From positions 78,581 through 117,588 of the forward strand of contig CACBPP010000002.1 in assembly GCA_902541175.1 (NCBI GenBank): 39,008 nucleotides of DNA. Reading direction: 5' to 3'. The notes beneath the pieces are model-generated. The model saw only the letters and a program-made list of their open reading frames with translations. It did not search any database and had not been told where the DNA came from. The position numbers and the translations under genes are program-made. Below are positions 4,807 through 14,603 of this stretch, in pieces (the stretch's first letter is position 1; the number at the start of each line of letters is the position of its first letter). Source of the stretch: an uncultured SAR86 cluster bacterium (GTDB lineage Bacteria > Pseudomonadota > Gammaproteobacteria > Magnimaribacterales > D2472).

Positions 4807-5422
4807 AGCTGCATACGAAAAATTTTTGCTGCCGAAGCTTTTAGATACATGTTGTTCAACCAAGCCGATTCAATATCAAAGAAAAAAAATAGTGCCTCAA
4901 GCAAAAGGTACTGTACTTGAAATTGGTGTGGGTTCAGGTCTTAACATTCCTTTTTACGAAAAAAAAGATATTCATAAGATTTATGGCTTAGATCCATCTG
5001 AAGAACTATGCGAAATGGCAAGAAAAACTGCTGAAAATAATCAATTAAAAATAGACTTTTTAATAAATGGTGCTGAAGAAATTGAACTTCCATCAAATTC
5101 AATTGATACAGTGCTTATTACTTATACTTTGTGCACCATCCCAAATCCAAATGATGCTTTGAAAGAAATTAAAAGAGTGATGAGATCAGATGCCAGAATT
5201 CTTTTTTGTGAACATGGCACTGCTCCAGATAAAAATATTGTTAAATGGCAAAATAGAATAAACCCTTTATGGGGAAAATTATTTGGTGGTTGCAATATAA
5301 ATAGAGATATACCTAATATATTGGTGAGTGCTGGTTTCAAAATTAAAAATCTTGATCAAATGTATCTTCCAAGCACTCCCAAAATAGTTGGATATAACTA
5401 TTGGGGGAATGCCTCGACCTAA
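4799..5422 (+). CDS. Class I SAM-dependent methyltransferase (207 aa)
   Basis: I chose ATG 4799, which overlaps the fabI stop by 8 bases; an in-frame upstream start would run far into fabI. A Rossmann-type SAM-binding motif I is clear ([11 protein letters not shown], residues 39-49). It is followed by an acidic segment in the motif II position ([10 protein letters not shown]) and the later motif [19 protein letters not shown]. The C-terminal half has [20 protein letters not shown], as in UbiE/METTL7-type methyltransferases. The substrate is unknown. The overlap with fabI implies coupled translation, and the family often acts on lipids or quinones, so a lipid substrate is possible but unproven. 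Confidence 0.85.
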
Positions 5423-5426
5423 AAAT

Positions 5427-6872
5427 ATGAAAAACAGGCCTGTCGTTGTTGGGATAAGTTGTCTTCAACAAAAAGGAGATTTTAATGATCTCGATGAAGC
5501 GCTAATACTTATGGATAAGGCTACCAAGGCCGCAATAAAAGATTCTACAAATAAAAATATTGTAAATTACATCAATGAAATTCGTATTCCAAAAGGTTTT
5601 TGGAGATATAGGGATCCCGGTAGATGGGTTGCTGAAAATAATAATATAAATTCAGCTGAAACAAGCGTTACAAAAATAGGGATTCTGCAACAAAATCTAA
5701 TTAATTCTGCTTGTAAAAGAATCATCAATGGTGAAATTAATGGTAGTTTAGTTTTGGGTGGAGAATCTAGATATAAGATGCTCAGAGCTTCGATTGAAAA
5801 TAAAGAATATGTTGAAACTCCGTTAAATAAAAATCCTGATAATTATATTAAAGCTCCTGACGAACTTCAGCTAGATGTTGAAGAACAAGAATTAGGTCTT
5901 ATGGCTGTTGGGTATTATGCAATACTAGAAAGCGCCTTTAGGGCCGCATCCAGAAGTAAAATTGATAAACATAATGATTTTATAGCTAATCTTTATGCTC
6001 ATTTTTCAAAAATTGCAGCAAAAAATAATGATGGATGGATAGAAAAATCTCTTAAAAAATCTGAAATCCTTAACGAATCTAAAAAAAATCCAGCTCAGGC
6101 ATATCCATATAATAAATATCATTGTACAAGTTGGAATGTCAATCAATCAGCTGCAATAATAATCTGTTCTGAAGAGGTAGCTGATAATCTATCAGTACCA
6201 TTTGAGAAAAGAGTTTATCCCCTAGCCTCTTCAGAAAATAATCATATGATTGCTACCCTTCAGAGACCAAACTTAATTAGACCATTTGGAATGCAGCTGG
6301 CTTCTGAATTTATTCTACAAATATGTAAAAAAAATAATCTCAATATAGATTTCTATGATTTGTATAGCTGTTTTCCTGTTGCGATACAAATGTTTGCTAA
6401 ATCTCTTGAAGTAAAAGATCTTAATAATTCTTCTATTACAGGAGCAATGCCATTTGCTGGAGGACCTATTAACAGTTTTGTTCTTCATTCCTCTGCAAAA
6501 TTAATATCAAGAATCAGGGAAGAACAAAAAGGAATCGGTATTATTACTGGAGTGTCAGGAATGATGACAAAACAATCTTATGCCTTATGGTCCAAAAATC
6601 CAGTTATTGATTTTATTTATAAAGATTATACAAATGAGGCTAATTCTATAGAAATACCAATAGAGTTATCAAATGATGTTAATGGAGATGGTACTATTAT
6701 TGGGTATACGGTAATAAAAAAAGATTTCTCGAAAGCAGTGATTTATCTTGATACAACTGATAATAAAAGAAAATTGATTACTTCGTCTGATAAAACTATT
6801 ATTAAATTAATGGAGAATGAAGAATGGGTAGGAAAAAAAGTACATTTCAAAAATCATCAATTAGTTTTATAA
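5427..6872 (+). CDS. Thiolase-like protein with C-terminal OB-type domain
   Basis: Starting at ATG 5427 (4 bases after the methyltransferase stop) gives 481 residues beginning MKNRPVVVG, the usual family N-terminus. ATG 5409 is the alternative; neither has a good Shine-Dalgarno. The thiolase fold shows in INGSLVLGGES, the central domain with YDLYSCFPVA, and GAMPFAGGPINSFVLHS in the position of the thiolase glycine/histidine loop. The last ~85 residues look like an OB-type appendage. By eye the nucleophilic Cys expected before LQQNLINSA is missing (VTKIG). The C-terminal Cys is also replaced (GIITGVSGMM). This places it with the thiolase-like proteins annotated as acetyl-CoA acetyltransferase, whose activity is uncertain. 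Its operon with fabI and a methyltransferase suggests acyl-CoA or lipid chemistry. Confidence 0.8.
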   Translation: MKNRPVVVGISCLQQKGDFNDLDEALILMDKATKAAIKDSTNKNIVNYINEIRIPKGFWRYRDPGRWVAENNNINSAETSVTKIGILQQNLINSACKRIINGEINGSLVLGGESRYKMLRASIENKEYVETPLNKNPDNYIKAPDELQLDVEEQELGLMAVGYYAILESAFRAASRSKIDKHNDFIANLYAHFSKIAAKNNDGWIEKSLKKSEILNESKKNPAQAYPYNKYHCTSWNVNQSAAIIICSEEVADNLSVPFEKRVYPLASSENNHMIATLQRPNLIRPFGMQLASEFILQICKKNNLNIDFYDLYSCFPVAIQMFAKSLEVKDLNNSSITGAMPFAGGPINSFVLHSSAKLISRIREEQKGIGIITGVSGMMTKQSYALWSKNPVIDFIYKDYTNEANSIEIPIELSNDVNGDGTIIGYTVIKKDFSKAVIYLDTTDNKRKLITSSDKTIIKLMENEEWVGKKVHFKNHQLVL

Positions 6873-8269
6873 CTTTATTATTTCTTTGTAGCTTCATTTC
6901 AGCTGATGAAGTTCTAAAAAATATTGAAAAGCACAAACAAAAATTTGAAAACGTAGCAAATGAAATTTGGGATTATGCTGAAGTTGGTTATCAAGAGTTA
7001 AAGAGTGCAAATTTATTAATTAATGCGCTTCAATCTCAAGGATTTGAGATTAAAACTAATTTAGCAGGAATACCTACAGCTTTCATAGCTGAATTTAATA
7101 ATGGTGGTCCAATTATTGGCATCCTTGGAGAATTTGATGCCCTTCCAGGTTTGGCTCAAACAAAATCTCCATTTAAAGAGGTAATTAATAATTCTACAGG
7201 TGCTGGTCATGCTTGTGGTCATCACTTATTTGGAGCTGCATCAGCATGGGCTGCAGTGGCAATAAAAGAATGGATAGTTGAAAATAATATTGAAGGGACC
7301 ATAAGGTTTTATGGTACTCCAGCTGAAGAAGGTGGATCTGGAAAAGTTTACATGGTAAGAGAAGGTCTATTTAATGATGTTGATATTGTTCTTCACTGGC
7401 ATCCAGATGATGTAAATAGCGCCAACTCAAGAACGTCGAATGCAAATAAATCTGCAAAATTTACTTTCAAAGGCATTTCCGCTCATGCGGCTGGTTCGCC
7501 TGAACAAGGAAGATCAGCGCTTGATGGTGTTGAAGCAATGAATCACATGGTAAATATGATGCGTGAACATATTCCTCAAGAATCAAGAATTCATTATGTC
7601 ATTACAAAAGGAGGCTTGGCACCAAATGTAGTACCAGATATTGCAGAGGTTTATTATTATGTGAGACATCCAAAAATGTCTGTAGTTGATGATCTTTTCA
7701 AAAGAGTTGTAAATACAGCATCAGGGGCTGCAATTGGGACAGATACTAAAATGTCATATGAAGTAATGCATGGAAATTTTTCACTACTGCCAAACGATAC
7801 TATTCAAAAGATAGTACATAAAAATCTTGAGGCGATTGGAGGCGTTAGTTATGACGAAGAAGAAACTAAGTATGCTACCGAAATATACGAAACTTTTTTT
7901 GAACCTGATAATGAGATAGGCACTCAAGAGTCCATTAGACCCTTTAAGACATCACATAGTTATGGCTCTACTGATGTTGGAGATGTGAGCTGGAATGTTC
8001 CAACTGCAGGTTTAAGGACTGCAACCTGGGTCCCAGGCACTGCAGCTCACTCATGGCAAGCTGTAGCAATTGGTAGAACATCAATAGGATTAAAGGGTGC
8101 GGAAGTTGCAGCTAAAGTGCTTGCAAAAACAGCGGAAGATATCTTCTTAAATCAAAATATTATTACGGAAGCAAAAAACGAACATAATGCTAGAATTGGA
8201 TCTGATTTCAATTACACGCCACTTCTTGGTGATAGAGAGCCTCCCTTAGATTATAGAAAAGTTAATTAG
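6824..8269 (+). CDS. Exported M20 amidohydrolase, AbgB-like
   Basis: This 481-residue protein has a signal peptide (hydrophobic core SFITLLFLCSFISA, residues 14-27). The start ATG 6824 has GGAG at 6812-6815, and the gene overlaps the thiolase-like gene by 49 bases. Metal-ligand motifs of family M20 are present: LGEFDALPG (101-109), GHACGHH (128-134), PAEEGG (166-171) and HWHPDD (191-196). The dimerisation region AHAAGSPEQGRSALDG and the C-terminal STDVGDVSWNVPT and AHSWQ strongly resemble AbgB, the catalytic subunit that cleaves p-aminobenzoyl-glutamate. E. coli AbgB is cytoplasmic and works with AbgA. Here there is an export signal and no abgA, so a periplasmic aminoacyl or N-acyl amino acid hydrolase is equally possible. 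It converges on ggt, overlapping by 8 bases. Confidence 0.88.
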   Translation: MGRKKSTFQKSSISFITLLFLCSFISADEVLKNIEKHKQKFENVANEIWDYAEVGYQELKSANLLINALQSQGFEIKTNLAGIPTAFIAEFNNGGPIIGILGEFDALPGLAQTKSPFKEVINNSTGAGHACGHHLFGAASAWAAVAIKEWIVENNIEGTIRFYGTPAEEGGSGKVYMVREGLFNDVDIVLHWHPDDVNSANSRTSNANKSAKFTFKGISAHAAGSPEQGRSALDGVEAMNHMVNMMREHIPQESRIHYVITKGGLAPNVVPDIAEVYYYVRHPKMSVVDDLFKRVVNTASGAAIGTDTKMSYEVMHGNFSLLPNDTIQKIVHKNLEAIGGVSYDEEETKYATEIYETFFEPDNEIGTQESIRPFKTSHSYGSTDVGDVSWNVPTAGLRTATWVPGTAAHSWQAVAIGRTSIGLKGAEVAAKVLAKTAEDIFLNQNIITEAKNEHNARIGSDFNYTPLLGDREPPLDYRKVN

Positions 8270-9983
8270 ATTGAACTGAAACTCCAGCATTTGGTCTTCT
8301 TAAATCAGCAAATCCTGTATTAACTCCATCTACAACATGAATACTTTGAGTGCTTCCTATTGTCATTTCATATTCTGTTTCATGTCCCATAGTTTTTAGT
8401 CTTCTTACAATATCTCTGCTTACTGCCCTTTCATGCTCAAGTCCTGAATAAGGCCAGTCTTTATGAATTCTTGGGAGCATTGTTGCCTCACCAATATCTA
8501 AGTTAAAATCTATGACTCCTGTTACTACTCTTAAAATTGCAGCTGGGATATCTGAACCTCCTGGAGATCCGGTTATTAAAAATAATTTATTATCTTTATC
8601 AAAGACGATTGTAGGTGCCATAGTACTCATAGGTTTTTTTCCAGGTTCAAACCTATTTCCAGGACTTGCAGCTCTTCCAATTTCAGTTTTATCTCCATAT
8701 CTATAAGCAAAATTATTCATTTGACTATTCATTAGAATCCCCGTACCTGGAATAGTAACTCCTGATCCAAAAGATAATCCCAAAGTATAAGTGTTTGAAA
8801 CTGCATTTCCTTCTTTATCAATTATCGAATAATGTGTGGTATCTTTGCTTTCTTTTCTTAACTTGAATGGCTTAACTTTGCTTGGTGGGCTAGCTTTATT
8901 AGAGTCAATTGTTTTGGAAAGTTCTATTATTCGTTTGTTTGAAAGAAGTTCTGATATTGGAACATCAAAATACTCCGGATCACCAACAAAATGAGATCTG
9001 TTGTTATGTCCTCGCCTTAATGCTTCAGCCAAGTAGTGATATGTCTTTGTAGAATCACTTTTATATTTTGTAATATTAAAATTATTAAGTATCCCAAGTG
9101 ATGTTAATAAGGTAATGCCTCCACCTGATGGAGGAGATGCCGTAAATACTTTGAAGCCCTTATAATTTATTGCAATAGGCATTCTAAAGAACGATTTGTA
9201 ATTTTTTAAATCGTCATGTGTTATGAGTCCATTATTGACTTCCATCGCTTTTACAATTTTGTCTGCAACAACGCCTTCATAAAAACCCTTTATTCCATTT
9301 TTAGAAATTTCCCTAAAAGTATTTGCTAGATCTGGTCTTTTGAAAACTGAAAATTCTTTTCGAGGCTCACCATCTTTAAAATAAATTGAAAATGATTCTT
9401 TGTCGCTCCTTAATTGAGGAGTGACCTCAATTACATAACTAAGATCTTTCGAAACAACAATTCCATTTTCAGCCTGCTCAATTACTGGCTCCATTATTTT
9501 TTTTAGATCTAGCTTTCCAAAATTTTCATGTGCCTCAAGTAAGCCATACACCGTTCCGGGAATTCCTGAAGCGAGATAGGTATAATCAACTCTATTCCAT
9601 AATTCTGAATCTCTATCTGGAATTTGCTTTACTCCTAATAATTTTTCAATTGATGCGTTTCTTGGTGATTGACTTCTATAGTCAATATAAAATAATTCAT
9701 CTTTTTCTTTAATGTAAACCAACATAAAACCACCGCCACCAAGATTGCCAGCCCTAGGTAAAGTAATTGCTAAAGAAAAGCCTACCGCAACTGCAGCATC
9801 AACTGCATTGCCACCCATATCAAGAATTTTTACTCCCAAATCTGAAGACAAAGCACTTTGACTAACCACCATACCGCCCGAACTAGATGTTGGATGAAAT
9901 GGATGCGGATAATCAATATAATCTTGACCAGATTGTATCGATATAGAAAATAAAATAACGATTATAAATTTCTTAAAAATCAT
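8262..9983 (-). CDS. ggt: Gamma-glutamyltransferase
   Basis: GGT cleaves or transfers gamma-glutamyl groups from glutathione and related compounds, normally in the periplasm. The N-terminus (FKKFIIVILFSISIQSG) is a signal peptide. The 573-residue precursor is the normal length. Motifs in order: SSGGMVVSQSALSS, GGNAVDAAVA (58-67), LGGGGFML, PSGGG (285-289), the autocleavage/catalytic site DTTHYSIID with the nucleophile at Thr382, GILMNSQMNNF, and the oxyanion-region GSPGGSDIP. Self-processing into large and small subunits at Thr382 is expected from the family. It lies 3 bases after the stop of the SLC13 transporter and is probably co-transcribed with it. Its 3' end overlaps the M20 amidohydrolase gene, leaving no room for a terminator. 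Confidence 0.95.
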   Translation of the reverse strand: MIFKKFIIVILFSISIQSGQDYIDYPHPFHPTSSSGGMVVSQSALSSDLGVKILDMGGNAVDAAVAVGFSLAITLPRAGNLGGGGFMLVYIKEKDELFYIDYRSQSPRNASIEKLLGVKQIPDRDSELWNRVDYTYLASGIPGTVYGLLEAHENFGKLDLKKIMEPVIEQAENGIVVSKDLSYVIEVTPQLRSDKESFSIYFKDGEPRKEFSVFKRPDLANTFREISKNGIKGFYEGVVADKIVKAMEVNNGLITHDDLKNYKSFFRMPIAINYKGFKVFTASPPSGGGITLLTSLGILNNFNITKYKSDSTKTYHYLAEALRRGHNNRSHFVGDPEYFDVPISELLSNKRIIELSKTIDSNKASPPSKVKPFKLRKESKDTTHYSIIDKEGNAVSNTYTLGLSFGSGVTIPGTGILMNSQMNNFAYRYGDKTEIGRAASPGNRFEPGKKPMSTMAPTIVFDKDNKLFLITGSPGGSDIPAAILRVVTGVIDFNLDIGEATMLPRIHKDWPYSGLEHERAVSRDIVRRLKTMGHETEYEMTIGSTQSIHVVDGVNTGFADLRRPNAGVSVQSN

Positions 9984-9986
9984 AAA

Positions 9987-11423
9987 TTAAAAAATAAGTG
10001 GGGCTAAATAGTATGCAAAGACTGTTACTACAAAGATACCTATTATATTTAATGCGAATCCAGCTCTCATCATTGTTGCAATTGTAAATTTATTTGAACC
10101 ATAAACAATTGCATTTGGAGGTGTGGCTACTGGCAACATAAATGCGCAACTTGCAGCCAAACATACTGGCACTGTCAAAGAAACTGGAAGCACTCCAATT
10201 GCTATAGCTAACGCTCCAAACACAGGTAAAAACGTAGTTGTTGTAGTTACATTACTTGTGATTTCTGTTAAGAAAATAATCAAAGTTGCAACAGCCAATA
10301 TTAAAAGAATTGGAGGGACTGTACTCAATATTAATAAACTATTGCCTATCCAAATACCCAAACCACTCGAGCTAATTTGCGCCGCTAAAGATAGTCCTCC
10401 ACCAAATAATATGAGCAAGCCCCATGGTAAATCTTTAGATTTTTCCCAATGAAGTAAATCACCCTTTTTTGAGGCAGATGGTGTCATAAAAATTAGTATT
10501 GCAGCTATTATTGCTATTCCGGCATCAGTCAACCCAGAAAGTACCTCTATCCTATTTAATAAAGTTCTGAATACCCATGCAAAAACTGCTAATCCAAAAA
10601 TTACAGAAATTCTTTTTTCATCTTTTGTAAATGATCCCATGTTATTTAACATTACTTTGAGTTCATTTCTCGCCTCAATTGAGGACGTAAAATTTATTGG
10701 AAAAACGTATTTTGTTAATAGTATCCATGCTCCGAATAGTAAAATGCTTGCTAAAGGAACTCCTAGCATCATCCAATCAAACATTGAAATTTCAACGCCA
10801 TATGTATCTTGCATGAAAGCACTAAACACTATATTTGGAGCAGTACCAATTAATGTTGACATACCTCCAATAGTTGCTGCGTATGCAATACCAAGAAGTA
10901 AAGCTGTATCAAAATTAGATTTGTCTTTATCAGTAAGTCCTGGAATAGTTTCTGACATTACTCCACATACTGCCAATCCAATTGGTAACAGCATTAAAGT
11001 TGTTGAGGTATTCATTACCCACATACTTATAAGAGCAGCAACGAGCATAAATCCACCCACTAATGTTCTTCCACTTGATCCAACTGAAATTATCATTTTT
11101 AGAGCAATTCTTTTATGAAGTCCGGAGCTCTCTATTCCTAATGCAAGCATAAAACCACCTAAAAATAGATAAATGTTCTTATTCGCATATGGTACTGCAG
11201 CTTCTTCAAAGGACGTTACTCCAAGCAATGGAAATAATGCCAGAGGTAATAATGCTGTAATTGCGACAGGAACTGTCTCAGTTGCCCACCAAATGGCCAT
11301 TAAAACTGCAACGGCTGCAACATTCCATGCTATTTCACTTAAACCAGCAGGAGCTGGTGAAATCAACATAATTAGAAATAGTAAAATTCCTATTGAAAAA
11401 CCCTTCTTTTTATATGCTGACAT
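9987..11423 (-). CDS. SLC13/DASS family sodium:anion (dicarboxylate-type) symporter
   Basis: This 478-residue polytopic inner-membrane protein has about 11 hydrophobic segments and little else. Family marks are WWATETVPVAITALLP, an SNT-type motif MNTSTT near residue 138, a second one in EITSNVTTTTTFLP, and ATPPNAIVYGS near the C-terminus. DASS proteins import C4-dicarboxylates, citrate or other anions with sodium. Substrate choice cannot be read from the sequence. It is the first gene of a two-gene operon with ggt. Its start codon is six bases from a TATAAT box with no Shine-Dalgarno, so a leaderless message is predicted. Confidence 0.92.
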   Translation of the reverse strand: MSAYKKKGFSIGILLFLIMLISPAPAGLSEIAWNVAAVAVLMAIWWATETVPVAITALLPLALFPLLGVTSFEEAAVPYANKNIYLFLGGFMLALGIESSGLHKRIALKMIISVGSSGRTLVGGFMLVAALISMWVMNTSTTLMLLPIGLAVCGVMSETIPGLTDKDKSNFDTALLLGIAYAATIGGMSTLIGTAPNIVFSAFMQDTYGVEISMFDWMMLGVPLASILLFGAWILLTKYVFPINFTSSIEARNELKVMLNNMGSFTKDEKRISVIFGLAVFAWVFRTLLNRIEVLSGLTDAGIAIIAAILIFMTPSASKKGDLLHWEKSKDLPWGLLILFGGGLSLAAQISSSGLGIWIGNSLLILSTVPPILLILAVATLIIFLTEITSNVTTTTTFLPVFGALAIAIGVLPVSLTVPVCLAASCAFMLPVATPPNAIVYGSNKFTIATMMRAGFALNIIGIFVVTVFAYYLAPLIF

Positions 11424-11429
11424 TATTTA

Positions 11430-11435
11430 ATTATA
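11430..11435 (-). promoter_or_regulatory. -10 element of the SLC13-ggt operon (leaderless type)
   Basis: TATAAT is separated from the ATG by exactly six bases (TAAATA). The expected start point seven bases after the hexamer is the A of ATG (11423). There is no clear -35; the expected place is taken by the TBDR 2 terminator. Confidence 0.55.
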
Positions 11436-11451
11436 TGTTTAAAAGGCAAAA

Positions 11452-11477
11452 AAAAGGGAGTTAAATAACTCCCTTTT
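11452..11477 (-). terminator. Rho-independent terminator of TBDR 2
   Basis: The inverted repeat has arms 11452-11463 and 11466-11477, core GGGAGTTA/TAACTCCC. On the minus strand it is followed by a T run (window A run 11448-11455). It lies 13 bases after the TBDR 2 stop codon and ends just before the SLC13 promoter. Confidence 0.88.
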
Positions 11478-11490
11478 ATAATGAATGATT

Positions 11491-14400
11491 TTAGAAATCC
11501 ATTCTTAGATCTAGATAGAAATGTCTTCCTTCATCTCTATGTATATCAGAATAGAAACCAAAGAATCCGTCTGCAAGAGGAGCTCTTTCATCGGCTATGT
11601 TTTTAACCATAAATCTTACTCTTGCATCATTACCATTGAGTGTAAAGTTTTTATAAACACTCAAGTTAGCAGTTGTCATAGTTGGGATTTTCCAAACCAA
11701 TCCATCAGATGTTTTTACACCTTGATCAAGAAGTTCACCCAATCTAAGTGCTGATAATGTTGCACCCCAGTCTCCTCTTTTGAAGTTGACCTTTAAAGTA
11801 TCTTTCTGATCAGTACCAGTAGTCTCAACCCCTAGAAGATCACCATAACCAGAAATAGTTGTGTAAGCTGGGAGAACACCACTTTGTACTGCAGCATTGA
11901 TTCTAGCAAATTCAGCAGAAGGTTCTTGTTCAAACTCATCTGTTATAGAGCTTTGGAAAGTAATACCAAATTCTCCAAGACTAGTTTCAAAGTTATAGTA
12001 AACTGAAAAATCTGTACCTTTAACTGTTCTTGTTGCTAAATTTCTATATGGTTCATAAATAACATCTTGCTGACCTGCTGGACAAATTCCTGCATTTAAG
12101 AATTGCTCATCAGTTGCAGAACTCGGATCTTTATCCCTAAATACAACAGATCCATTGATAGCATATTTACCAAATTGGCTATTTAGTACATTTTTGCCAT
12201 CACAAAACGCTAGCATATCAGCTACAGTTGTTGCTCCACCAATTCCCTGTTCTATTCTCAATAAAAGATCTAGAACACTCTGATTAACTCTTCCAAAAAG
12301 ACCAATTGTATTTTCTTTTTCAATTGACCACGTATCAACTGTAATTGTTAGCGCATCAGTAGGAGTCAATACAACACCTAGTGTAGAGTTATCAGATTCC
12401 TCTGGTTTAAGATCTGGATTACCAAGTCTGAAATGTAAAGTATTTGCGACAGTCCAATCATCAACAAATTTAGATCCTGATTTTGATGGAAGTGCGTCAC
12501 CATTATTTTTATAAATTCTGTATTTCTGCACTGCATCATCTCTAGTTCCAGTTCTTGTGACATATGGTTGATTCATTTGTAGAATGTTTGGAGTTCTAAA
12601 TGCAGTTGAAAAAGAACCTCTAAATTTCACATAATCATTTAAGTTGTAACCTATGGCTATTCTACCAACAGTAGTTGACTCTGAATCAGAAAAATCTTCT
12701 TGTCTTAAAGCGATTTGAGCATCCATTTTAGATGTTATTGGTAATACAAATTCAACAAATGAAGAATTAACCCTTTTCACACCGAAAACATCAACAGTAG
12801 GACTTGAACCCATTACAGCAGATGTAAATGGATGAGATCTGGTTTGACTGGTTACACCACAACAATCTTGGTTTGTAATCGTTCCATCTAAGAGCATATC
12901 TCTGTCATCAGTATATGTTTCTTTTCTTCTTTCAATACCAATCAAAACAGCAACTGGACCAGCTGGAAGATCAAAAGCCTCAGGATTAGACATTTTAAAA
13001 TCAAACATATCTAATGTTGATTTATCATCTCTTGTTATATCTGCAAGGATGTTATCACCATTATTAGTTTCCCAGTTTGTATCGAAAATATTAAAAGCTG
13101 CAGCAGTTTTACTTAGATCTCCTTGGAAATTTTCATATAGTAATGGGTAAGTCATTCTGTCTTTTGCTAAATCATTACTTCTTGCCTTTGAGCTTGTAAT
13201 CGCAGACTCCCAGTCCCAACCATTACTGAAAGTACCTCTTAAGCCTAATACTAGTCTTGTGCTGACTTTATCGACATGAATTTGTCTACCCTTATTAAAA
13301 GGTCTCCAACCATCGACAGCAACACTTTTATTAGTTGGAAAATTAATGGCTTCAGGTAATTGTGAGAACCAGTAATAATCACTGCTAATTGAAAAAACAC
13401 CGCCTCTAAAACTACCAGCAGAAATATCTCTACTTGATGATGCAGTGTAATATCCTAATTCGTTAAATAGTTCTATACCATTATCAAATTCATGATTAGT
13501 AAAGATGAAAATTTGAGACCTTTGCATTTCACCTCTGTAATCACCAAGACCTCTTTGGTTTGATCTATTGTCACCCAAGTTAGTATCAAACAAACAAGTT
13601 CCAAAACCTGTTAGAACTGCTCCTTCAAGAGCACATAATGCAGCACCACCTCTAGGATCGGTAGCATCAGCCATTTCGGTTTCTCCATCATTAGAGGCAT
13701 GCCATGCTTCACCAACACCTTTCCCACTCAAGTCAAGTTGAAACCAACCATAAGTGCTAGTGTTATTCATTGAAGATATTCCTGAGAATGGTGAGTCATC
13801 AGAAATGTATCTTCTATAATCCTGGTTATACCAGCGCTCATCTTCACTTGCGCTTATGCTACCCCGATCTCTATGTCGTGCAAAAATAGAAATGTTTGTA
13901 GCGCCACCGTTTAGATCAGTACCAAATTTGTAACTTATATCTGTATCAGTTGCATCGAAGTGCTCATAACCTGTAACTCTTACAGATAATCTTGAACCTT
14001 CATAATCAGTATCTAAAACATTATTTACTACACCAGCAACAGCATCAGCACCGTAAATAGCAGATGCACCATCTCTTAGTATTTCTAGTCTATCTAAGCC
14101 GTTTGTTGGTATTAGGTTGGTATTAACAGTTACAGTAGGAACAAAGTCACCACCAATATATTCTGTTTGATAACCTGCATTATTTACCATTCTTCTTCCA
14201 TTTAGAAGTGTTAGTGTATTTCCAACACCCATACTTCTAAGGTTGTATGCACCGGAGTCACCTCTTGATGCGTTAACACCACCAGAAGCCTGCTCTTGCT
14301 CATTAAAGAAATTTAGACCTTGTTCAACTAAATTTTCAACAAGTTCGTCACCATCACTAACACCCAATGCTGAGATATCGTCAGCAGACAGTACAGTAAC

Positions 14401-14541
14401 AGGCAAAGCAGCAGTTATTGAAGCTCCTTTTATTTGAGAACCAACAACTACAACTTCTTCAACATCAGTTGAGTCTTCTTGTGCAGTTAAAGCGAAAGGT
14501 AATAATAATAATATAGTAAAATAATATTTTAAATTGCTCAT
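11491..14541 (-). CDS. TonB-dependent outer-membrane receptor 2 (1016 aa)
   Basis: A signal peptide of about 20 residues ends at LTAQ. A TonB-box-like DVEEVVVVGSQ follows. The plug domain (about residues 40-180) has NTLTLLNGRRM and RLEILRDGASAIYGADAVAG. A very long barrel ends in HFYLDLRMDF with the terminal Phe expected for barrel assembly. It differs from TBDR 1 throughout the barrel, so the two probably take different ligands. The start is fixed by an AGGGGA Shine-Dalgarno and a good sigma70-like promoter upstream. It sits just upstream of the SLC13-ggt operon on the same strand but is separated by a strong terminator. A functional link with those genes is inferred only from position. Confidence 0.95.
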   Translation of the reverse strand: MSNLKYYFTILLLLPFALTAQEDSTDVEEVVVVGSQIKGASITAALPVTVLSADDISALGVSDGDELVENLVEQGLNFFNEQEQASGGVNASRGDSGAYNLRSMGVGNTLTLLNGRRMVNNAGYQTEYIGGDFVPTVTVNTNLIPTNGLDRLEILRDGASAIYGADAVAGVVNNVLDTDYEGSRLSVRVTGYEHFDATDTDISYKFGTDLNGGATNISIFARHRDRGSISASEDERWYNQDYRRYISDDSPFSGISSMNNTSTYGWFQLDLSGKGVGEAWHASNDGETEMADATDPRGGAALCALEGAVLTGFGTCLFDTNLGDNRSNQRGLGDYRGEMQRSQIFIFTNHEFDNGIELFNELGYYTASSSRDISAGSFRGGVFSISSDYYWFSQLPEAINFPTNKSVAVDGWRPFNKGRQIHVDKVSTRLVLGLRGTFSNGWDWESAITSSKARSNDLAKDRMTYPLLYENFQGDLSKTAAAFNIFDTNWETNNGDNILADITRDDKSTLDMFDFKMSNPEAFDLPAGPVAVLIGIERRKETYTDDRDMLLDGTITNQDCCGVTSQTRSHPFTSAVMGSSPTVDVFGVKRVNSSFVEFVLPITSKMDAQIALRQEDFSDSESTTVGRIAIGYNLNDYVKFRGSFSTAFRTPNILQMNQPYVTRTGTRDDAVQKYRIYKNNGDALPSKSGSKFVDDWTVANTLHFRLGNPDLKPEESDNSTLGVVLTPTDALTITVDTWSIEKENTIGLFGRVNQSVLDLLLRIEQGIGGATTVADMLAFCDGKNVLNSQFGKYAINGSVVFRDKDPSSATDEQFLNAGICPAGQQDVIYEPYRNLATRTVKGTDFSVYYNFETSLGEFGITFQSSITDEFEQEPSAEFARINAAVQSGVLPAYTTISGYGDLLGVETTGTDQKDTLKVNFKRGDWGATLSALRLGELLDQGVKTSDGLVWKIPTMTTANLSVYKNFTLNGNDARVRFMVKNIADERAPLADGFFGFYSDIHRDEGRHFYLDLRMDF

Positions 14542-14573: not shown

Positions 14574-14603
14574 ATTATAGGCATTCTTAGCTGAATCTGT
14601 CTA
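14574..14603 (-). promoter_or_regulatory. Sigma70-type promoter of TBDR 2
   Basis: On the minus strand TAGACA (14603-14598), an 18-base spacer and TATAAT (14579-14574) form a near-consensus promoter. The predicted start is near 14567, giving a leader of about 25 bases that contains the AGGGGA Shine-Dalgarno close to the ATG. This is the clearest leadered promoter in the window. Confidence 0.7.

Follow-up and report, generated by a model that had tools for sequence, protein, structure and literature searches.

In the gamma-glutamyltransferase (GGT) of Escherichia coli, D433 touches the alpha-amino group of the donor and N411 bonds with Y444 of the lid. Replacement of D433 by Asn abolishes transfer and brings a gain of hydrolysis of glutaryl-7-ACA (glutaryl-7-aminocephalosporanic acid), and Asn also stands at this position in the class IV cephalosporin acylases, according to excerpts of PMC8062742. 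Excerpts of a published account of SAR86 report the absence of sulfate assimilation and propose that ggt and pepB, found in all four families, turn glutathione into cysteine (PMC11582366). Does this role extend to every SAR86 enzyme of the GGT family? Here we investigate a gene cluster of an uncultured SAR86 bacterium in which a GGT-family gene lies with genes for a TonB-dependent receptor (TBDR1), a DASS/SLC13 symporter and an M20 amidohydrolase. The window, the whole stretch of 39,008 bp that was analysed, is G000:C2:78581-117588, from a SAR86 genome of 1,155,361 bases in 13 contigs that is 90% complete. No paper describing the SAR86 TBDR1/DASS/ggt/M20 cluster was found in a literature search.

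We propose, with a probability of about 0.45, that TBDR1, DASS and ggt, optionally joined by M20, are a unit for scavenging acidic amides in which an altered GGT holds the central place. TBDR1 would import into the periplasm an acidic conjugate that porins are too narrow to admit. There the exported GGT-family enzyme would hydrolyse an amide with an acyl part that retains the distal carboxylate found in gamma-glutamate and has no free alpha-amino group; acyl candidates may be of the glutaryl type, or an N-acylated gamma-glutamyl residue such as occurs inside an isopeptide chain. DASS, to judge from its family, would then take up the dicarboxylate or acidic amino acid so released, together with sodium. 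The AbgB-like M20 would serve as an optional amidohydrolase of the exopeptidase type and trim the product or a conjugate related to it. In some genera the cluster also has a gene for a LysR protein and one for a secreted enzyme that resembles poly(aspartate) hydrolase. As substrates we favour acidic isopeptides or glutaryl amides first of all. The original prediction was that all four proteins could act in sequence on glutamyl conjugates; its interpretation of the module is partly supported, and the order of action from outer membrane to cytoplasm is one that we infer. The genes are where it had put them; gene models and coordinates hold and family scans agree. The features are:

6824 to 8269, plus strand: probably exported AbgB-like M20 amidohydrolase, accessory (481 aa; Peptidase_M20 and M20_dimer, TIGR01891)
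8262 to 9983, minus strand: GGT-family enzyme with altered donor pocket, ggt (G_glu_transpept, TIGR00066)
9987 to 11423, minus strand: DASS/SLC13 sodium-coupled anion symporter, close-coupled to ggt (Na_sulph_symp, TIGR00785)
11491 to 14541, minus strand: TBDR1, TonB-dependent receptor (1016 aa; TonB barrel and plug domains)
11452 to 11477, minus strand: conserved intrinsic terminator between TBDR1 and DASS (terminator scan and conservation)
14574 to 14603, minus strand: promoter-like site upstream of TBDR1 (11/12, from a scan that overall yields no more sites than shuffles)
5388 to 6872, plus strand: thiolase-like gene upstream of M20, a neighbour that is probably outside the module

The proposal is built on the donor pocket of the GGT-family enzyme. 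The window ggt product matches TIGR00066 over its full length with 479 bits, against a curated cut-off of 358, and its T382, R103, G402, Q421, N424 and S453/T454 are the equivalents of T391, R114, N411, Q430, D433 and S462/S463 of E. coli Ggt. Counts of GGT and M20 are of distinct sequences, identical ones having been merged (102 GGT hits gave 72 plus that of the window); sequences under 35% identity (GGT) or 45% (M20, DASS), or with coverage under 85-90%, were left out of the alignments. Aligned to E. coli Ggt, 73/73 distinct cluster GGTs show Gly in place of N411 and Asn in place of D433. The catalytic T391 and the oxyanion G483 and G484 are likewise kept in 73/73, R114 is kept in 72/73 and S463 has become Thr in 72/73; the protein of locus L071 deviates at 114, 462 and 463. 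Of the donor alpha-amino site (N411, Q430, D433) the cluster enzymes keep Q430 only, and the donor site of a GGT was thus not found. Because N411 and D433 are replaced, the enzyme is filed here as a GGT-family hydrolase and not as a GGT by activity, and an amide lacking a free alpha-amino group would be its substrate. No cluster GGT has Tyr in lid column 444 of the alignment of 73, although this column sits in a poorly aligned loop, which detracts from its value for the proposal.

The cluster enzyme thus shares with E. coli Ggt (TIGR00066, PF01019) the catalytic Thr, R114, Q430, S462, the oxyanion Gly-Gly and a hydrophobic N-terminus, but differs by N411G, D433N, S463T, the lack of lid Tyr444 and its place in a separate clade, the SAR86 cluster GGTs being monophyletic with 100/100 support. 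It shares Asn for D433 with the class IV cephalosporin acylases and the D433N variant, to which it is likened by residue and not by tree; unlike them it also has Gly at 411. A GGT match at 1e-150 was found in 17 of 369 genomes sampled from the class, at 21 places. At six sites (114, 411, 430, 433, 462 and 463) 16 of these 21 read RNEDSS and three, all SAR86, read RGQNST. Two further GGT-family proteins are encoded in the window's own genome: one is divergent, and the other, which lies at G000:C4:29270-30793 and is unlinked to the cluster, has N411, D433 and E430, the last being the form in most class relatives.

These residues bear directly on glutathione use, by which the GGT would free glutamate and Cys-Gly, peptidases would free the cysteine and DASS would take up the glutamate. 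Excerpts of PMC11582366 give this as the general reading of SAR86 ggt, and the catalytic Thr and R114 are indeed kept. In addition, the D433N E. coli enzyme retains about 82% of hydrolysis (excerpts of PMC8062742), so an altered pocket is compatible with gamma-glutamyl hydrolysis, a point that counts against our proposal. On the other side, the donor alpha-amino contacts are altered in 73/73 cluster GGTs while a GGT of the same genome keeps both N411 and D433, which makes glutathione an unlikely substrate of the cluster enzyme. Glutathione also fits through porins, and a dedicated TBDR would be needless for it. Glutathione and ordinary gamma-glutamyl peptides, which had been named as possible substrates in the original prediction, are therefore poor candidates; a normal preference of the cluster GGT for free gamma-glutamyl donors is unlikely on its residues, and we consider glutathione use quite improbable.

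A broader claim, which we regard as doubtful, is that SAR86 has a GGT-derived enzyme selected for amides without a free acyl alpha-amino group and built into a TonB-to-symporter unit. It might act on gamma-glutamyl bonds inside folate tails or inside acidic isopeptide polymers, or on glutaryl amides, and it would be the natural equivalent of the glutaryl acylase obtained by engineering D433N. To our knowledge, such a change of the GGT pocket has so far been known mainly from engineering and from the class IV cephalosporin acylases, and the 73 enzymes with an invariant pocket change are a natural sequence set. SAR86 is among the ocean's most abundant bacterial groups. If one SAR86 GGT has another substrate, the glutathione-to-cysteine inference, as excerpted from PMC11582366, would partly need revision, and a niche in dissolved organic matter (acidic isopeptides, glutaryl amides or folates) would become open to testing.

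The acidic-amide proposal also requires that the genes belong together. The original prediction had called their link one of position only and had named unlinking in close relatives as its refutation; this was looked for, and the genes stay linked. The loci fetched with their surroundings, the window and 69 others, cover all 70 M20-bearing genomes of the family. In 69/70, ggt or TBDR1 is downstream of M20, either directly or past one LysR gene, and in the sole exception (L202) the contig ends 314 bp past M20. The gene next to M20 is ggt in 40 (window included); in another 20 it is TBDR1, and in the remaining 10 it encodes a LysR regulator. ggt follows DASS directly on the same strand in 68/72 named SAR86-type DASS loci, with a median gap of -1 over the 68 pairs, and in the window DASS lies 3 bp upstream of ggt, both on the minus strand; the two are close partners, as had been predicted. 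Two of the other four loci stop at a contig end, and L102 and L103 hold a DASS copy in another context. The linkage of the cluster genes is real and above chance.

In the window ggt and M20 are convergent, tail to tail with an 8 bp overlap, as the original prediction said, and M20 is indeed on the strand opposite to ggt. The strand crossing is not general. M20 runs with TBDR1 in 29/70 M20-bearing genomes, which is 29 of the 30 with TBDR1 or LysR next to it (L202 falls short of TBDR1), and DASS and ggt have the same direction in those 29 wherever the contig extends that far. The TBDR1/DASS/ggt block is thus inverted as a unit between genera. In G137, from a second SAR86 family, gltX, ggt, DASS and TBDR1 stand together, the three cluster genes at 36-56% identity.

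Several observations weigh against a four-gene unit. An M20 orthologue of at least 71% identity is present in 22/34 genus genomes and in 70/107 family genomes, and M20 is truly missing in 6 of the 28 assembled genus loci (G003, G006, G009, G012, G027 and G028); in six others the locus is broken or unassembled (G007, G014, G017, G024, G026 and G029). M20 also lies away from the cluster in G137, on another contig, and in G273 and G123. DASS is missing in three loci with enough flank (L065, L071 and L216), and its homologues outside SAR86 adjoin none of the cluster genes. In the five genus genomes without DASS the neighbouring gltX is gone too or, in G026, the contig ends. As a rule gene order is conserved in the family, gltX-dnaQ-rnhA next to the block included, which makes linkage by itself weak evidence there. 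Because of the M20-less assembled loci and G137, TBDR1-DASS-ggt is the core and M20 accessory; of the four-gene sequence of action envisaged earlier, the joint retention of TBDR1, DASS and ggt stands, while a constant place for M20 does not.

At L102 and L103 DASS has no ggt, and a gene of the 'GNSYLYYNDSLHNHV' kind is directly downstream; the contig of the window has a homologue of this gene, at L079:664-1443. L088 (labelled Verrucomicrobia TMED44) and L097 (Hyphomicrobiales) carry a SAR86 gltX-TBDR1-DASS segment at SAR86-like identity and are probably misbinned.

The closest characterised sequence to M20, among those compared, is AbgB of E. coli, at 39% identity over its full length (469 aa, 2e-113), against 25% for AbgA. 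AbgB shares 109 of the 171 invariant M20 positions, including C131, H133, E168, E169, H193, H409, N268 and R281, which are the likely metal and carboxylate ligands. E. coli AbgB is cytoplasmic. In contrast, the N-terminus of the window M20 is hydrophobic (over its first 40 aa the best 12-residue hydropathy mean reaches 2.42, versus 0.02 in AbgB), and 57/58 M20s reach 1.6 there, so that on hydropathy, the only measure used, M20 is probably exported. A further difference is that neither an AbgA partner nor an AbgT transporter is encoded beside it, its links being to TBDR, GGT and DASS. The description of an exported AbgB-like enzyme without AbgA has thus held up. A single further M20 match was found in the genome; it lies on contig C1 and is 25% identical to the window M20, 27.7% to AbgA and 24.4% to AbgB.

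Could M20 belong instead with the genes on its other side? It might go with the upstream thiolase-like and fabI genes and hydrolyse N-acyl amino acids, in which case its position next to ggt would be inherited order. The M20 ATG lies inside the thiolase-like gene, with a 49 nt overlap up to the stop of that gene, which is directly upstream in 57 of the 69 fetched M20 loci. The structure model is weak (mean pLDDT 63.8) and does not allow the pocket to be read. Its best fold matches are HmrA and PM20D2, and HmrA and an acylglutamine aminoacylase are among the nearest solved folds; moreover, ggt-DASS is kept in the six loci without M20. However, the thiolase-like gene is missing in 12/69 loci and ggt or TBDR1 in none with enough sequence, the resemblance to AbgB points elsewhere, and in the gammaproteobacterium G245 (see below) M20 adjoins TBDRs and a GGT with no thiolase. 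We hold this lipid-side role of M20 to be rather unlikely.

Folate offers another substrate for an altered GGT. TBDR1 would import pteroyl-polyglutamates and the GGT would trim their gamma-glutamyl tail, in which the alpha-amino groups are blocked, for a host that cannot make folate. No dihydropteroate synthase profile match was found in 34/34 genus genomes; matches above cut-off occur in 33 of 203 order genomes, all of family f3, and the window's own family (f1) has only weak matches in long frames. There is no pabB match above cut-off in the genus, and the f3 genome G282 is without a cluster-type GGT match at 1e-150. Nevertheless, folB and folK homologues are present (from a search of 507,292 of the 1,155,361 bases of the window's genome) and folA and thyA lie elsewhere on the contig, which means that the pathway has not just been lost and that a simple folate auxotrophy is weakened. 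The single chorismate enzyme is in a trp-type operon, yet it aligns to pabB as well; the presence/absence link comes from a single genome in each of the families f2 and f3, the pair compared being G137, with the cluster and no listed dihydropteroate synthase match, and G282; and an M20 cutting p-aminobenzoyl-glutamate would destroy folate. Folate capture is in our view very unlikely. As an observation in itself, the dihydropteroate synthase profile is unmatched in the genus though the window's genome has folB, folK, folA and thyA homologues (L232-L241 and f1).

DASS scores 298 bits for TIGR00785 (cut-off 199), and its best PDB matches are NaCT, SLC13A2 and VcINDY. Its second SN[TV] motif is SNV in 75/76 rows and XNV in the other; its first motif differs from that of the DASS/SLC13 family, being MNT and not SNT in 76/76. 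MNT was considered as a marker of the cluster and rejected as a subfamily trait, since it is also present in 7/8 non-SAR86 DASS (L153-L159; the motif search in L152 was empty). The window DASS has 98% identity to its counterpart in a single-cell genome of an uncultured SAR86 bacterium. In TBDR1 both plug and barrel domains were found, as in a TonB-dependent receptor, and the fold matches from its weak model (pLDDT 61) are generic siderophore/B12 receptors.

The terminator of the original prediction is present; it sits at 11477-11452 between TBDR1 and DASS and not between M20 and ggt. A terminator was found in 44/45 TBDR1-DASS spacers, against 1-4/45 in each of five shuffles; this conservation, a further point against the unit, weakens the idea of a single TBDR1-DASS-ggt transcript. 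An Rfam scan of the window gave tRNAs only and no riboswitch. TBDR1 varies much more than the genes around it do (L036-L064): at L044 the identities to the window are 93% for DASS, 83% for ggt and 44% for TBDR1. The TBDR1 of L059 is 84% identical to that of the window. DASS and ggt also fall into classes of about 80-98% and 62-65%, mixed in L045 and L048, as if alleles had been exchanged.

Some clusters contain added genes. LysR genes are present in 22 of the 69 M20 loci, and a secreted alpha/beta hydrolase is inserted between TBDR1 and DASS in 17. The best PDB match of this hydrolase is poly(aspartic acid) hydrolase-1 (PahZ1; E 3.6e-43), a type that cuts beta-amide and not alpha-amide bonds according to excerpts of PMC4456602. 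Its insertion in some clusters fits an acidic isopeptide substrate, if the sequence likeness to PahZ1 extends to function. The window's cluster differs in having no PahZ1-like gene, a homologue being found elsewhere in its genome.

A related arrangement, which counts in favour of the proposed unit, exists outside SAR86. In a single run, the gammaproteobacterium G245 (4.1 Mb) carries a pair of TBDRs, a GGT of the G411/T433 form, an M20 at 53% identity and, by reading of the sequence, a TAXI-like binding protein. At the six GGT sites it has one RGQTSS and one RMNNSS. Its GGT is outside the SAR86 GGT clade, a point against the proposal, so that G411 in it had a separate origin or goes back much further. 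Directly after the G245 M20, at L183:13617-14444, is a gene that reads as creatininase-like and could hint at the substrate there. An M20 match was found in only 4 of the 118 genomes of the G245 family search. M20 follows a TBDR, directly or past one gene, in two of three further G245-family genomes that have an M20 match (L192 and L193), and does not in L194, G273 and G123. The M20s of L192 and L193 are AbgB-like with hydrophobic starts, with genes upstream that read as FecR-like, a layout that hints at regulated TBDR-M20 pairs in other bacteria.

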